A stretch of 32,920 nt of DNA from a virus (IMGVR_UViG_3300044615_000779:1-32920); one strand, 5' to 3'; shown: positions 2,792-9,385, numbered from the stretch's first letter. A program made the numbers and translations. Notes: generated by a model not told the origin, from the sequence alone.

Positions 2792-4656
2792 GCCTCTTCC
2801 GTTCGCTCCCGCCCGCACCCGAGAGCGAGCGGAAGGAAGTCTACATCAAGGGTCAGGCAGTCGGAGAGTCGCGAGATCTCCGACGAGTCCTGGCGCTCCC
2901 GCGACGCCCGCGGCCTGATGATGCTCAGACCGCATTATGGGCAGAGTACATAAAGAGCGAGCTGGGCACCGGCATCACTTCCTGCGAGTGCGAGACGAAG
3001 TACAAGCGGCGGTGCTGTGCCAACCTTCTGCCCGTGCAGGCGTGGGCGCTCTACGAAGCGGCCACCGTGGGCGGGCTGCTCGGACCCATCGGTGTCGGCC
3101 ACGGGAAAACTCTCCTCGACTTGCTCACGCCGATGGTCGTCGGCGCAAAAACAGCAGTTCTCCTCCTTCCCCCGAACCTCAAAGCGCAGATGCTTGAGGT
3201 GGACTGGCACTTCTATGGACAACACTGGAAACTCCCAAACTTGGCAGGTGGCCGCTGGATCGCCCCAGGAAGGCCCACACTCCACGTGGTGGCGTTCTCC
3301 GAGCTATCAGGTAGTCGAGCGACAGACCTACTCGACCGCCTACGCCCCGATGTGGTCGTGGTCGATGAAGCCCATTCTGTCCGCAACCGCACCGCCGCCC
3401 GCACCAAACGCTTCCGCCGATTCGTCGAAAAGCACAGACCCAAAGTGTTCGCCTGGAGCGGAACGCTGACCTCACGGAGCCTCAAGGACTATGCCGACCT
3501 CTCGAATTTCGCTCTTGCGGAAGGCAGCCCGACGCCTCTCCACTGGCCTACAGTGGAGGAATGGGCAGGCCACCTCGATCCAAGTGAGTTTCGTAGTCCA
3601 CCCGGACGGCTCGTTCAGTTCGGCACGGATGCAAGAGTGGGATACGCAAAATGGCTTGTGGATACCGCAGGCGTGGTGTCGTCTGGTGATTCGGCCTCCT
3701 GCCAAGCGAGCCTCGTCATCTCCGAGCGCAAAGTCGAAGCGCCCGAAGTCGTCAAGCGCCACCTCGCGGACCTCGAAGCGACGTGGACGCGCCCGGACGG
3801 CGAAGAACTCATCGACGCGATGAGCGTCGGTCGGTGCGCTCGCGAGCTGTCCTGCGGGTTCTACTACCGCTGGCGCTGGCCGCGTAAAGAGCCCGTCGAA
3901 GTCATCGAGCGGTGGCTGAAGGCGCGCAAGGAGTGGCACAAGGAACTCCGCGAGAAGCTGAAGCTCTCACGGCCTCACATGGACTCGCCGCTCCTGTGCG
4001 CGAAAGCGGCCATTCGTTGGTACAAGGGGTACACGCATGTCGAAAGAGACGAAGCGGGAAACGAAGTCGGAAGGCGTGAAGTCCCTCCGCGCAGCATGGC
4101 CGGGCCTCTTCCGGTCTGGCCTAGCCTCTGCTGGCCCGAGTGGGAAGAAGTCCGCGACTCCGCGAAACCGGAAACCGAAGCGGTCTGGCTCGACGACTTC
4201 CTCGTCGAAGACTGCCTCGCGTGGCTCGCGGAAGGCCCCGGCCTCCTCTGGTACGAGTTTGATGGACTTGCTCAACGCATTCGTCAACGTGCGCGAGGCG
4301 GCGAAGTTGTCCTTACTCACGCTGGCCCTGGAGATGACGGAAACAGGGTCGTCCTTGGGCTCACTGGAGGAGAGCGGGTTACCGCCAGCATTCGTGCTCA
4401 CGGAACTGGAAAGAATCTCCAGCAGTTTGCTCGCAATCTCGTCGCGAATCCGCCAAGCAGCGGGAGCGAGTGGGAGCAACTCATCGGCCGCACCCACCGC
4501 CAAGGCCAAAAAGAAGACGAAGTGAGCATCGAAGTCTACCGCCACACGGATCCGGTGCTGAAGGCGGTTGAGAAGGCCCGAGACTTGAGCGAGTACATCG
4601 AAGAGAGCTTCGGTGCGACTCAGAAGCTGGCGAGCAAGGCTACTTGGCGATTCTGA
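2788..4656 (+). CDS. SF2 DNA helicase (SNF2/DEAH-like)
   Basis: GTG 2788 overlaps the nuclease stop (GTGA) and opens 622 aa. Motifs in order: a Q-like LLPVQ at 80-84, Walker A GVGHGKT at 102-108, a strand and LLPPN (motif Ia region) at about 125-130, Walker B DEAH at 193-196, SGTLTSR (motif III) at 224-230, and a C-terminal half with ASIRAHGTGKNLQ and the arginine-finger motif QLIGRTHRQGQ (motif VI) at 564-574. This is an ATP-dependent duplex DNA translocase or helicase, encoded next to a recombination nuclease as often seen in phage replication modules. A Cys cluster (C66, C68, C76, C77) precedes Walker A. Codon use is odd: from about 4255 on, third positions become AT-rich while the +1 frame is GC3-rich, suggesting constraint from an overlapping reading frame. 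Confidence 0.88.
   Translation: MSLFRSLPPAPESERKEVYIKGQAVGESRDLRRVLALPRRPRPDDAQTALWAEYIKSELGTGITSCECETKYKRRCCANLLPVQAWALYEAATVGGLLGPIGVGHGKTLLDLLTPMVVGAKTAVLLLPPNLKAQMLEVDWHFYGQHWKLPNLAGGRWIAPGRPTLHVVAFSELSGSRATDLLDRLRPDVVVVDEAHSVRNRTAARTKRFRRFVEKHRPKVFAWSGTLTSRSLKDYADLSNFALAEGSPTPLHWPTVEEWAGHLDPSEFRSPPGRLVQFGTDARVGYAKWLVDTAGVVSSGDSASCQASLVISERKVEAPEVVKRHLADLEATWTRPDGEELIDAMSVGRCARELSCGFYYRWRWPRKEPVEVIERWLKARKEWHKELREKLKLSRPHMDSPLLCAKAAIRWYKGYTHVERDEAGNEVGRREVPPRSMAGPLPVWPSLCWPEWEEVRDSAKPETEAVWLDDFLVEDCLAWLAEGPGLLWYEFDGLAQRIRQRARGGEVVLTHAGPGDDGNRVVLGLTGGERVTASIRAHGTGKNLQQFARNLVANPPSSGSEWEQLIGRTHRQGQKEDEVSIEVYRHTDPVLKAVEKARDLSEYIEESFGATQKLASKATWRF
4037..4525 (+). CDS. Candidate overlapping gene in +1 frame of the helicase (162 aa)
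   Basis: An open frame starts at ATG 4037, with AGGGG about 9 bases upstream, and ends TGA 4523-4525. It lies wholly inside the helicase gene in the +1 frame. The product would have a basic, Ser-rich N terminus (about 1-75), a helical middle beginning MDLLNAFVNVREAAKL, and a Lys-rich tail (AKAKKKTK). From 4265 to 4470 this frame uses mostly G/C-ending codons, whereas the helicase frame there uses many unusual ones (TTT, GAT, GGA, CTT, ACT, GTT). That is the reverse of a normal shadow ORF. The helicase frame is nevertheless real (motif VI lies here). Dual coding is possible but unproven. Confidence 0.3.
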   Translation: MSKETKRETKSEGVKSLRAAWPGLFRSGLASAGPSGKKSATPRNRKPKRSGSTTSSSKTASRGSRKAPASSGTSLMDLLNAFVNVREAAKLSLLTLALEMTETGSSLGSLEESGLPPAFVLTELERISSSLLAISSRIRQAAGASGSNSSAAPTAKAKKKTK

Positions 4657-4657
4657 G

Positions 4658-4686
4658 TTGACAGGTGCCCGAGTAATAACTAAATC
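4658..4686 (+). promoter_or_regulatory. Candidate sigma70-like promoter
   Basis: A perfect -35 box TTGACA (4658-4663) is followed 17 bases later by TAAATC (4681-4686), a weak -10, within an AT-rich stretch that is exceptional for this genome. It lies directly after the helicase stop in the 91-base gap, one of the largest gaps on this strand, and points toward the gene at 4748. The -35 match is strong and the -10 match partial. Confidence 0.45.
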
Positions 4687-4693
4687 ATCTCTG

Positions 4694-4712
4694 TCGCCGC
4701 ATTTCGCGGCGA
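4694..4712 (+). promoter_or_regulatory. 5' leader hairpin
   Basis: TCGCCGC (4694-4700) and GCGGCGA (4706-4712) form a perfect 7-base-pair stem with loop ATTTC. It lies just downstream of the candidate promoter and 35 bases before ATG 4748, with no T-run after it, so it is more likely an mRNA-stabilising leader element than a terminator. Confidence 0.45.
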
Positions 4713-4747
4713 AGACACGCAGCAAAAACGAAAGCGAGAGTTTCAAA

Positions 4748-6265: not shown

Positions 6266-6495
6266 ACGCCCGAGAGCAACTCCTGAAGAAGCGCGTCGAG
6301 TCCCTCGAAGGTCAGCTCAAAGCGAGCCTCGAACTGCTCGGGCGGGTGCTGGGCGAGAACGAGTACCTGGCCTCCGTGGCGTGCGGATTCGCGTGGGATC
6401 TCGCGGGCGAAACCTTCGGTGACTTTTATACGGACGCGGTTGGCCACTCGATGCTCGACCGGTGGGCCTCGGCGGTCGAAGAGGCGTCGAAGTGA
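6262..6495 (+). CDS. Hypothetical protein with N-terminal coiled coil (77 aa)
   Basis: GTG 6262 overlaps the preceding stop (GTGA). Residues 5-40 form a likely coiled coil (LLKKRVESLEGQLKASLELL with Leu/Val heptads). The second half is more hydrophobic and aromatic (ACGFAWDLAGETFGDFY), followed by a short helix. It ends overlapping the DNA polymerase start at 6492, so it is translationally coupled to the polymerase. Whether it is a polymerase partner is not visible. Confidence 0.55.
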   Translation: MNAREQLLKKRVESLEGQLKASLELLGRVLGENEYLASVACGFAWDLAGETFGDFYTDAVGHSMLDRWASAVEEASK

Positions 6496-8441
6496 GCCTG
6501 CTCGCGTTCGACCTCGAAAGTCACCTGATTCAGCCTGGACTTCTCGCGCCGCCCATCGTCTGCGGCTCGTTCGCGGACAAGCGCACCGGCATACGCTTAC
6601 TTATGAGTCGCGAGGAGACGCTGGACGAGGTCGAGGCGTCTCTCTCAGGCGACGATGTCATCTTCGTCGGGGCGAACATCGCCTACGACTGGGGCTGTAT
6701 TCTGGCCGTTCGACCGGATCTGCTCCCCCTCATCTGGAAGGCTTACGCGGAGGAGCGCGTGTTCGACGTGCTCATCGCGGGCACGCTGGACGCCATCGCG
6801 GGCGGGCGTCTGCGCTCGGAGGACGGGCCGACCGAACTCTTCATGCGCAACGGCAAGAAGATTCAGTCGGGGCGCTACTCGCTGGAGTCTGTCACCGAGG
6901 ACTACCTCGGGCGCACCGACGCCAAGCGGAACGACCGCTGGCGCAAGTCCTACGCCCTGCTCGCGGACATTCCTATTTCGGAGTGGCCCGAAGACGCGCG
7001 GCAGTACCCCATCGACGACGCTGTCAACACCCTCGAAGTGGCGGAGGTCCAGCTCAAGCAGTGTCAGAACCTCCACAACCTCCCCGCTCAGGCTCACGCT
7101 GCGTTCTGCGCGCACCTGGGGGCCATCTGGGGACTGCGCGTGGACCCCGAGCGCGTCAACGCCCTCAAGGCGTCCGTGGACGAGAACATGGCCCGCGTGC
7201 AGAAGTTCGCGGTCGAGCACAAGCTGCTCAAGCTCGGCGGCACCAAGAAGGCCCCGAAGTGGACCAAGGACACGAAGTACATCAAGGAACTGGTCTACAA
7301 GGCGTATGACGGCCTGCCCCCGACGACGGACGGCGGTGACATCAGTATGTCCCGCGAGGCGCTTCAGGACTCGATGGACCCCGTGCTGGTCGAGTTCTCA
7401 GAAACGTCGAAGTGGGAGAAGTTGCACACCTACGCAAACACGCTCTTTGAAGCAAAAGACAACCCGTTCAACGTCGAGTGCAACATCCTGCTCTCGACGG
7501 GCCGCGCCTCGTACAAGGGCCTCATCCAGCTCATCCCGCGAAAGGGCGGGGTCCGCGAGTGCTTCACGGCTCGCCCCGGCTACGTGTGGTCCTCGGTGGA
7601 CTACGCCGCAATCGAGATGAGCACGCTGGCTCAGGTCTGCCTGTGGGCGCTCGGGTACTCCAAGCTCGCGGACGCCATCAACGCCGACGTGGACCCTCAC
7701 TCCCTCTTCGCAGCGGAGATGACGGGCGCGCAGTACGAGGATTTCCTCAAGAACAAGGAGCGCGCCGAGGAGAAGGGTTACCGACAGGCCGCGAAGGCAG
7801 CCAACTTCGGCTTCCCCGGCATGATGGGCGGCGTTTCGTTCGTCACCGCGAAGAAGACGGAAGGCGAGAAGGTCTGCGAGTGGACATACCGCGACGGCCA
7901 GTGCGGCAGCGAGAAGGTACGGCAGTGGAAGGGCCGCGATCTGGATTCGCCCTTCTGCAAGCGGTGCATCGAGGAAGCGGAGAAGCTGCGCCAGTTCTAC
8001 CTTCGCCAGTGGCCCGAGATGCCCAACTACTTCAAGTGGGTGCAGGCCGAGGGCGACACCGTGGAGCAATTCGTTTCCAAGCGCGTGCGCGGCGGGTGCT
8101 CAGGCCCCGCGGCGGCGAACACGCGCTTCCAGGGCTTGGCGGCAGACGGAGCCAAGGCCGCCATCGTGAAGATGACGGAGGAGATGTACTTGGACTCGTC
8201 GAGTCCGCTCTACGGGAGCCGGTTGATGGTCTTCGCCCACGATGAAAGCATTTTGGAGATTCCCGAGGAGAAGGCCCACGAGGCGGCTCACCGGCAAGCG
8301 GAGATTATGGTCAGCGAGATGCGCCGCTTCGTACCGGATGTGAAGGTCAAGGCCGAGCCCGCGCTGATGCGGCACTGGTCGAAGAGTGTGACGACGAAGT
8401 ACGACGCGAACGGGCGTCTGATTCCCTGGGAGCAAGCGTGA
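6492..8441 (+). CDS. Family A DNA polymerase with 3'-5' exonuclease domain
   Basis: GTG 6492 overlaps the previous stop (GTGA); the protein is 649 aa. Exonuclease motifs: FDLE (D7, E9), N62-x3-D66 in ANIAYD, and YPIDD at 172-176 (Y172, D176). Polymerase motifs: A, DYAAIE at 370-375; B, RQAAKAANFG with R431, K435, F439, G440; C, HDE at 583-585. All catalytic residues are present, so it should be an active proofreading replicative polymerase for the phage; there is no 5'-3' nuclease domain, as usual for phage enzymes. Between motifs B and C (about 462-492) lies an insert with four cysteines (C462, C471, C489, C492) that could bind zinc, not part of the standard fold as I know it. It is followed directly by the methyltransferase gene (overlap at 8438). 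Confidence 0.93.
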   Translation: MSLLAFDLESHLIQPGLLAPPIVCGSFADKRTGIRLLMSREETLDEVEASLSGDDVIFVGANIAYDWGCILAVRPDLLPLIWKAYAEERVFDVLIAGTLDAIAGGRLRSEDGPTELFMRNGKKIQSGRYSLESVTEDYLGRTDAKRNDRWRKSYALLADIPISEWPEDARQYPIDDAVNTLEVAEVQLKQCQNLHNLPAQAHAAFCAHLGAIWGLRVDPERVNALKASVDENMARVQKFAVEHKLLKLGGTKKAPKWTKDTKYIKELVYKAYDGLPPTTDGGDISMSREALQDSMDPVLVEFSETSKWEKLHTYANTLFEAKDNPFNVECNILLSTGRASYKGLIQLIPRKGGVRECFTARPGYVWSSVDYAAIEMSTLAQVCLWALGYSKLADAINADVDPHSLFAAEMTGAQYEDFLKNKERAEEKGYRQAAKAANFGFPGMMGGVSFVTAKKTEGEKVCEWTYRDGQCGSEKVRQWKGRDLDSPFCKRCIEEAEKLRQFYLRQWPEMPNYFKWVQAEGDTVEQFVSKRVRGGCSGPAAANTRFQGLAADGAKAAIVKMTEEMYLDSSSPLYGSRLMVFAHDESILEIPEEKAHEAAHRQAEIMVSEMRRFVPDVKVKAEPALMRHWSKSVTTKYDANGRLIPWEQA

Positions 8442-9385
8442 ATGTGGATCCTGCCGAAATCGATTGCATCAGCCTATTCAGCGGAGCCGCTGGACTCGAC
8501 ATGGGAGTTGAACTCGCAGGCATCAGCCGCCGAGTCGTCGCTTACGTGGAGAGGGAAGCCTACGCCTGTGAAGTCTTGGCTTCGCGCATGGAAAAAGGCG
8601 ACATGGCTCCAGCGCCTATTTGGACGGATGTGTCCACCTTCGATGGGCACCCATTTCGGGGCTTGGTGGGCTGCGTCTCTGGCGGCTTCCCGTGTCAGGA
8701 CATCAGCGTCGCCGGAAAGCAGGCCGGAATCGAAGGCCAGCGAAGCGGGCTCTGGAAGCAGTTTGCCCGCATCGTCTCCGAAGTTCAGCCTCGACTGGTC
8801 GTCATTGAAAACGTCGCGGCCCTCCGCACGAACGGCCTCGAAGTCGTCCTCGCGGACCTTGCCGCGCTCGGGTTCGATGCGGAGTGGGGTACTCTCCGAG
8901 CGTCCGATGTTGGAGCGACTCACCATCGCGACCGACTCTTCATTCTGGCCTACCGCGACTGTGGGGGATCATCACGGGAGCGGGAGCCACGGGTACGGGA
9001 AGGTCAGCGCGAGCACGGGCAAGAGCCGCAGCGAGGGTGTGACGCTGACGGACGCGGCGGTGAGGCTGTGGCAAACACCCCGGCCGAGCCTCGTGAATCC
9101 GGCGAGGCGCATGTGGCCGACAGCAGCAGCAGCACACGACGCGAAGGACACGGGGGCGAAGGCAGAGTACGAGCGGAAGAGTCCTGGGCTCACGGCTACT
9201 GGCCACCTCCTCCAGATGCAGATGAGTGGCGCGAGATCGCTGCCCAAAGACCGGACCTTGAACCCTCGGTTCGTCGAGTGGCTGATGGGCTGGCCAATCG
9301 CGTGGACCGACTGCGACTCACAGGTAACGGAGTGGTTCCTCGTCAAGCCGCTGAAGCTCTGATTCAACTCTTGCGCCGGACATAA
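8438..9385 (+). CDS. C5 cytosine DNA methyltransferase (Dcm-like)
   Basis: GTG 8438 overlaps the polymerase stop (GTGA). The 315-aa frame has motif I FSGAAGLDMG (14-23, SAM binding), motif IV GFPCQDIS (83-90, catalytic C86), motif VI ENVAAL (124-129), motif VIII HRDRLF (163-168), and at the C terminus RVADGLANRVDRL with GNGVVPRQA (motifs IX-X, near 296). It should transfer methyl groups to cytosine C5 in phage DNA, probably protecting it from host restriction. Residues about 173-255, where the target recognition domain should be, are low complexity, rich in Arg/Glu/Gly. There the +1 frame instead reads as an ordered protein with stronger G/C-ending codon bias. So the gene appears dual coding, or its recognition domain is unusual or degraded. 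Confidence 0.85.
   Translation: MNVDPAEIDCISLFSGAAGLDMGVELAGISRRVVAYVEREAYACEVLASRMEKGDMAPAPIWTDVSTFDGHPFRGLVGCVSGGFPCQDISVAGKQAGIEGQRSGLWKQFARIVSEVQPRLVVIENVAALRTNGLEVVLADLAALGFDAEWGTLRASDVGATHHRDRLFILAYRDCGGSSREREPRVREGQREHGQEPQRGCDADGRGGEAVANTPAEPRESGEAHVADSSSSTRREGHGGEGRVRAEESWAHGYWPPPPDADEWREIAAQRPDLEPSVRRVADGLANRVDRLRLTGNGVVPRQAAEALIQLLRRT
8442..9362 (+). CDS. Overlapping +1-frame ORF, WPT/FVEWLMGWP-type protein (306 aa)
   Basis: This frame is open from ATG 8442 to TGA 9362, almost the whole methyltransferase gene in the +1 frame. It contains repeated W-P/Q-T motifs (FWPTATVGD, LWQTPRP, MWPTAAAAHDAKD), SRTLPRSGSMRSGVLSERP in the middle and LNPRFVEWLMGWPIAWTDC near the C terminus. From memory, this series of motifs is typical of a protein type found with phage and prophage cytosine methyltransferases (not verified by search). 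In the 3' half (about 8945-9330) this frame uses overwhelmingly G/C-ending codons, whereas the methyltransferase frame does not. No good SD precedes ATG 8442, so expression might use coupling to 8438, a downstream start, or frameshifting. Confidence 0.45.
   Translation: MWILPKSIASAYSAEPLDSTWELNSQASAAESSLTWRGKPTPVKSWLRAWKKATWLQRLFGRMCPPSMGTHFGAWWAASLAASRVRTSASPESRPESKASEAGSGSSLPASSPKFSLDWSSLKTSRPSARTASKSSSRTLPRSGSMRSGVLSERPMLERLTIATDSSFWPTATVGDHHGSGSHGYGKVSASTGKSRSEGVTLTDAAVRLWQTPRPSLVNPARRMWPTAAAAHDAKDTGAKAEYERKSPGLTATGHLLQMQMSGARSLPKDRTLNPRFVEWLMGWPIAWTDCDSQVTEWFLVKPLKL

Follow-up and report, generated by a model that had tools for sequence, protein, structure and literature searches.

In M.EcoHK31I, a two-polypeptide C5-cytosine methyltransferase, an alternative reading frame within the alpha gene encodes the beta polypeptide, and M.EaeI is likewise a two-polypeptide C5 methyltransferase. 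Motif IX of M.HhaI is RKLHPRECARVMGYPDSY and is followed by the GNSV of motif X. The sequence of M.EcoHK31I is X82231 (PMC6174562); its large subunit has motifs I-VIII and X together with a predicted recognition domain, and the small one has motif IX; in M.AquI, the large subunit has motifs I-VIII and the small subunit has the distal variable region and motif IX; split C5 methyltransferases can reassemble (PMC3404938). As for starts, AUGUG sites can give both frames in E. coli (Kohl et al., PMC9841429), and Thermus rnpA-rpmH (AUGGAUG, with one Shine-Dalgarno) has been called the sole bacterial ambiguous start described earlier (PMC9841429). Here we describe a C5-cytosine methyltransferase gene in a virus record of IMG/VR, IMGVR_UViG_3300044615_000779, whose whole 32,920 bases we call the window. 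The methyltransferase, alpha, is encoded on the plus strand at 8438-9385 (frame 0, 315 amino acids, GTG start), and a second protein, beta, overlaps it on the same strand at 8442-9362 (+1 frame, 306 amino acids, ATG start). The best reading of this locus is very probably dual coding for a two-polypeptide C5-cytosine methyltransferase: we are nearly certain that both frames code, and we consider it likely that beta provides the recognition half of the enzyme to which alpha belongs.

The first-pass annotation of this DNA had reported a +1 frame that is open for 306 codons and resembles a coding frame in its 3' half, and both observations hold. The frame runs from 8442 to 9362 and contains every peptide quoted there, and its GC content at codon positions 1/2/3 between 8945 and 9330 is 0.60/0.59/0.80, compared with 0.80/0.60/0.59 for frame 0 over the same bases and 0.62/0.43/0.87 for the family A DNA polymerase gene (6462-8441) directly upstream of alpha. 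In the GC-rich window gene alone, the openness is not significant (0 stops in the C-terminal part of the +1 frame, 1.5 expected, p 0.16); its significance comes from relatives, including genomes with 42-53% GC. These relatives were collected by one-sided searches. A beta-based search found 206 viral contigs encoding relatives of the +1 protein, of which 80 were kept; an alpha-only profile search of viral contigs contributed the best 80 of at least 600 stretches; and a search of bacterial genomes with a single beta protein as query gave 80 loci. In most of the beta-selected viral relatives, those at 42-53% GC included, neither frame is interrupted over some 280-510 codons. When loci were selected by alpha, a beta hidden Markov model matched the +1 frame in 80/80 (E 1e-21 to 1e-91) and alpha's own frame in 0/80. 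When bacterial loci were selected by beta, alpha lay one frame back in 80/80, no stand-alone beta was seen among them, and the overlap was at least 400 nucleotides (nt) in 76, being shorter in the other 4, 2 of which lie at contig ends. Their hosts include Pseudomonas, Acinetobacter, Burkholderia, Chromobacterium and Verrucomicrobia, and the overlap reaches about 1.5 kb among relatives. Alpha and beta are thus always together at the same frame offset, in relatives from two one-sided searches.

To obtain an expectation for stops in the +1 frame, synonymous codons were permuted within alpha while its protein was kept exactly. In the beta-selected set (83 loci), 6 stops were found from motif VI to motif X where 207.7 were expected, and 59 upstream of it where 199.5 were expected; in the alpha-selected set (79 loci), the C-terminal part had 14 (178.6 expected) and the N-terminal part 18 (159.7 expected), the loci being related, so that these counts are not independent events, and the N-terminal parts being defined slightly differently in the two sets. 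The +2 frame of the alpha-selected loci had 707 stops against 658.7 expected (C-terminal part) and 430 against 332.9 (N-terminal part). No deficit was present in 182 other genes of the same loci (2276 against 2237 expected, ratio 1.02), and +1 stops were about as expected in methyltransferases with a single frame from plasmids, Lactococcus phages and SPbeta-like phages. The converse count, 0 alpha-frame stops against 481 with beta kept, is not taken as proof, since alpha had been defined as open. Codon choice, examined in representatives below 80% identity (n=48 and 67), tells the same of individual positions: at conserved alpha residues, the codons that fix a beta residue are near-invariant, namely CGA for R in 31/31 (4.7 expected), GCT for A in 39/40 (6.7 expected), GGG for G in 43/44 (8.5 expected), CCT for P in 37/37 (7.0 expected) and GTG for V in 44/46 (13.9 expected); the R, A and G positions named here lie in the motif IX-like segment, together with a D that is GAT in 38/39. 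Codons rare in the genome are fixed where beta residues depend on them, and for the alpha-selected loci, G per degree of freedom had a median of 14.5 over 183 columns, where about 1 is expected without bias.

Substitutions between close relatives locate this constraint. Position 3 is normally the one that changes most, and in the V-VI region of 30 close pairs, changes at alpha codon position 3 exceeded those at position 1 by a factor of 2.23; for the recognition region, however, this ratio was 0.90, and around motif IX it was 0.95. For one pair (L074/L050), changes at positions 1/2/3 in the recognition region were 0.20/0.05/0.00, and in the best pairs 0/48, 0/34 and 0/28 four-fold sites differed, alpha position 1, which is beta position 3, varying freely. 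Of the two proteins, it is therefore beta that is constrained in the recognition region, and alpha need only stay open to motif X. Among divergent pairs, the excess of +1 identity over that expected from shuffling is greatest in three places, the WPTx region, the IX region and an N-terminal block (8528-8680), and in most relatives beta is constrained over nearly the whole gene, beyond the 3' half. The earlier proposal of overprinted genes under selection in both frames is hence strongly supported by stop deficits, codon choice and codon-position pattern: stops in the +1 frame of homologues are strongly depleted, and beta residues fix the choice of alpha codons along most of the gene.

Alpha has the features of a catalytic half. 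It matches phrog_363 over its full length (E 7e-64) and PF00145 over amino acids 9-174 only (E 4e-34), and it carries motifs I-VIII and X. Motif IV, GGFPCQ with the catalytic Cys, lies at 8681-8698 (G83, P85 and C86 invariant in alignment A1), motif VI, ENV, at 8807-8815 (E124 and N125 invariant in A1), motif VIII, THHRDRLFILAY, within the approximate limits 8918-8949 (conserved in A1), and motif X with the C-terminal helix, TGNGVVPRQAAEALIQLLRRT, at 9320-9382, where G296 and N297 of GNGVVP are invariant; all of these are on the plus strand. In the alpha-selected loci, where motif location was anchored on PCQ, motif VI is other than ENV in 63/80, and the motif IX pattern is absent from alpha in 80/80. 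Nor does alpha contain a recognition domain, so that the pairing of this domain with motif IX on one polypeptide, which marks a single-chain C5 methyltransferase, is not found in it. Its AlphaFold model, which Foldseek matches to M.HaeIII, M.HhaI and DNMT1 at about 1e-13, has a core (residues 5-173) with a predicted local distance difference test score (pLDDT) above 90; amino acids 177-255, between motifs VIII and X, are mostly below 50 and predicted to be disordered; at the motif X helix the confidence is high again (94-97). The end of alpha also matches the end of phrog_1008, presumably because the beta-like part and motif X share one open reading frame (ORF) in split mycobacteriophage genes; a label like 'DNA methylase' on one of these ORFs therefore adds no independent support.

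Beta matches phrog_1008 ('DNA methyltransferase') and has no match in Pfam or NCBIfam. Its C-terminal end is the motif IX-like 'TLNPRFVEWLMGWPIAWTD', part of a segment, LNPRFVEWLMGWPIAWTD, at 9258-9314 on the plus strand, whose bases alpha reads as LEPSVRRVADGLANRVDRL. The single-frame counterpart in a Lactococcus phage methyltransferase reads IRKLTPRECWRLQGFPDW. Since the beta segment fits L-x-P-x(5)-L-M-G-[WF]-P and is placed directly before motif X, it is a candidate for motif IX, and from its order, position and short pattern we infer that it is this motif. Upstream of it (8945-9257, plus strand), substitutions in close pairs point to a candidate recognition domain with the WPTx modules FWPTATVGD, LWQTPRP and MWPTAAAAHDAKD. 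The number of WPTx-like modules in beta ranges from 1 to 10 across about 160 loci; by analogy with multispecific phage methyltransferases, these might represent recognition units arranged in tandem. The N-terminal block WRGKPxPxxSWxRxWKxxxWxxRL (residues 40-85, about 8560-8695 in the window) is strongly constrained, predicted to be helical and resembles no known family. A beta starting only at the Met of SGSMRxG was considered and dropped for this class, as the start codons and the codon constraint upstream of that Met reveal a longer protein; shorter versions exist elsewhere. With no recognition domain in alpha and a IX-like segment in beta, the suggestion that the +1 frame is the missing recognition half is probably right, and this frame probably holds the DNA-recognition part that the enzyme otherwise lacks.

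The two proteins appear to share a start site. In the window, the region GGGAGCAAGCGTGAATGTG (8428-8446, plus strand, read from the sequence) has a Shine-Dalgarno-like GGGAG followed by GTG at 8438 (alpha), ATG at 8442 (beta) and GTG at 8444 (alpha frame), so that at GTGAATGTG two start codons stand a few nucleotides apart after one Shine-Dalgarno-like sequence. Such interlocked starts, with the alpha start 4 nt upstream or 2 nt downstream of the beta ATG, were found in 111 of the 132 loci (among 162) in which this ATG is recognizable; the alpha start is 4 nt upstream (NTGAATG-like) in 86, 2 nt downstream (AUGUG) in 44 and at both places in 19. The second codon of alpha, by which the beta ATG arises, is AAT in 51/53 representatives, against 22.5 expected. 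This arrangement suggests that one ribosome-binding site serves both proteins, and a shared ambiguous start for alpha and beta is likely.

Based on these findings, we propose that alpha would supply the S-adenosylmethionine-binding and catalytic domain, in which a variable and disordered linker separates motifs I-VIII from motif X, and that beta would supply the recognition domain and motif IX. With a single ribosome-binding site and interlocked start codons, one message would yield both chains, which would then combine into one enzyme, in which the beta helix LNPRFVEWLMGW may take the place of motif IX between the alpha core and motif X. The enzyme could then modify phage DNA, for example against host restriction. 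Several points weigh against this proposal. Nothing significant was found when 109 aligned beta proteins were compared with Pfam and the PDB, and the candidate motif IX has no significant profile match. The AlphaFold model of beta is poor (pLDDT 57.7); the only parts of useful confidence are short helices near 43-83, the IX-like helix at 275-282 and, between them, a hairpin (144-153). The beta start is not obvious in 30/162 loci, and in phages such as Gryphonian and R23.9 the N-terminal +1 frame is not open. The recognition domain of M.EcoHK31I is predicted in the large subunit, whereas here it is apparently in beta.

Some of these points would also suit two real proteins of which alpha works alone and beta has another role, such as regulating alpha or countering host defence: no known recognition domain has detectable homology to beta, nothing related to the N-terminal part of beta was found, and its modules are variable. 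Against this, alpha has neither a recognition domain nor motif IX, its VIII-X region is predicted to be disordered, and beta carries a IX-like segment at the collinear place, directly before motif X; moreover, the beta-like ORF also has motif X in split relatives (L001, L004, L104, L198). We regard such a separate role as improbable. The first-pass annotation had also offered a frameshifted fusion that supplies the enzyme with its recognition domain. Ribosomes slipping from alpha into the +1 frame would make one polypeptide of motifs I-VIII, recognition domain and IX, and a fusion of this kind is approached by two relatives in which a one-base deletion joins the N-terminal half of alpha to beta (L009, L012); split phage methyltransferases, too, have their second ORF in +1. 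However, with motif X in frame 0 and the IX-like segment in +1, one shift cannot join I-VIII, IX and X, so that motif X would be lost; no stop interrupts frame 0 before its end; the constraint on beta also extends upstream of any shift, and beta has a conserved ATG of its own; motif VIII drops out of the fused frame in L009; and no conserved shift site was noticed, though no systematic search for one was made. We therefore disfavour the fusion and consider a programmed frameshift very improbable. That the +1 ORF is untranslated and arises mechanically where GC-rich DNA encodes conserved methyltransferase residues is scarcely credible, for although its openness is not significant in the window alone and alpha residues account for part of the +1 similarity, shuffling that preserves alpha predicts about 10 times more +1 stops than observed, neighbouring genes and single-frame methyltransferases show no deficit, genome-rare codons are fixed where they determine beta residues, and alpha third positions change least in the recognition region of the closest pairs.

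The proposed two-polypeptide organization occurs in three variants. The window and most loci, among them the isolates Salmonella phage S9-5, Acinetobacter phage ABMM1 and Synechococcus phage Yong-M2-251, have full-length overlap with interlocked starts. In a second variant (Paenibacillus Gryphonian, Lacticaseibacillus R23.9 and phage C72C1), beta is shorter at its N-terminus. In a third, split variant (Dylan, Sebastisaurus, phiBT1), frame 0 ends after motif VIII and the +1 ORF also has motif X. A single-frame ancestor with later shifts is plausible. Further arrangements were seen at particular loci. In L103, IX and X are in frame 0 and WPTP modules in +1, and in the similar L104 all of these are in +1. 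In phiBT1 (L198, 1201-2305), an unannotated +1 ORF after gene 9.1 has WPTP-like modules, a IX-like segment and motif X. Streptococcus phage IPP54 (L205, 1192-2330) has another kind of split C5 methyltransferase, whose second ORF is in +2 and has an ordinary LTPRECWRLQGFP and motif X. The deletion common to L009 and L012 lies in a GGGG run (about 3430-3450) and puts motifs VIII and X in another frame, as a natural frameshifted variant or a decayed gene. Of the two genes for a DNA cytosine methyltransferase in an E. coli PT62 prophage (L194), one lies at 1043-2029, and the other, at 4001-4738, is of the dual-frame type; in E. coli PCP07014 (L195, 1501-2262) a related methyltransferase gene with an internal stop is labelled a pseudogene. 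Three dual-frame relatives (L268, L272, L284) are on contigs binned as archaeal metagenome-assembled genomes (Poseidoniaceae, Euryarchaeota); these could be viral contigs or binning errors.

Existing annotation reflects the two ORFs unevenly. In Gryphonian, both ORFs are annotated 'DNA cytosine methyltransferase', beta with the remark 'Not called by any program'; in Pseudomonas phPA-G, beta alone is annotated; and the phiBT1 alpha (gene 9.1) is a methylase annotated 'may be inactive'. We found no description of this overlap in the open-access literature, most subscription papers and REBASE lying outside that search. We think it likely that the locus represents a widespread class of phage C5 methyltransferases, in which two parts of the enzyme are encoded in two frames with near-full overlap from one ambiguous start. 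If that is so, the class has recognition modules in the +1 frame whose number varies, and its annotated protein, usually alpha and sometimes beta, is half an enzyme; hundreds of annotated phage methyltransferases are then probably half of the enzyme only. This would explain why PF00145 covers just half of these proteins, and alpha expressed alone would be expected to fail. In our judgement, which is not a survey, few conserved same-strand overprints in double-stranded DNA phages would be as long or as widespread as this one, most members of which share a conserved interlocked start.

Compared with the single-chain phage C5 methyltransferases of PF00145 and phrog_363, the catalytic domain is common to alpha, and alpha alone differs in being without a recognition domain and motif IX. 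In M.AquI, motif X is in the small subunit, whereas the window keeps it in alpha and so does not have the AquI layout; mycobacteriophage Dylan, the Streptomyces phages Sebastisaurus and phiBT1, and L104 appear AquI-like. The closer likeness is to M.EcoHK31I, with I-VIII and X in alpha and the candidate motif IX in a second polypeptide read in another frame, a likeness drawn from its published description; when M.EcoHK31I was sought among plasmid records, the candidates were NotI- and Eco29kI-type systems. Whereas M.EcoHK31I is one component of a restriction-modification system, no restriction gene was identified next to alpha and beta. As in the E. coli AUGUG/GUGUG sites and Thermus rnpA-rpmH (PMC9841429), the start codons here are 2-4 nt apart after one Shine-Dalgarno and would open two overlapping frames. 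Those cases concern individual genes or short products, whereas the alpha/beta layout is conserved across a large phage family and would yield two parts of one enzyme. A further difference from M.EcoHK31I is that beta here begins at an interlocked start and runs through almost all of the alpha gene. What would be new, relative to enzymes of the M.EcoHK31I kind, is therefore an overprint that extends along nearly the full length of the gene and appears to be widespread in phages.

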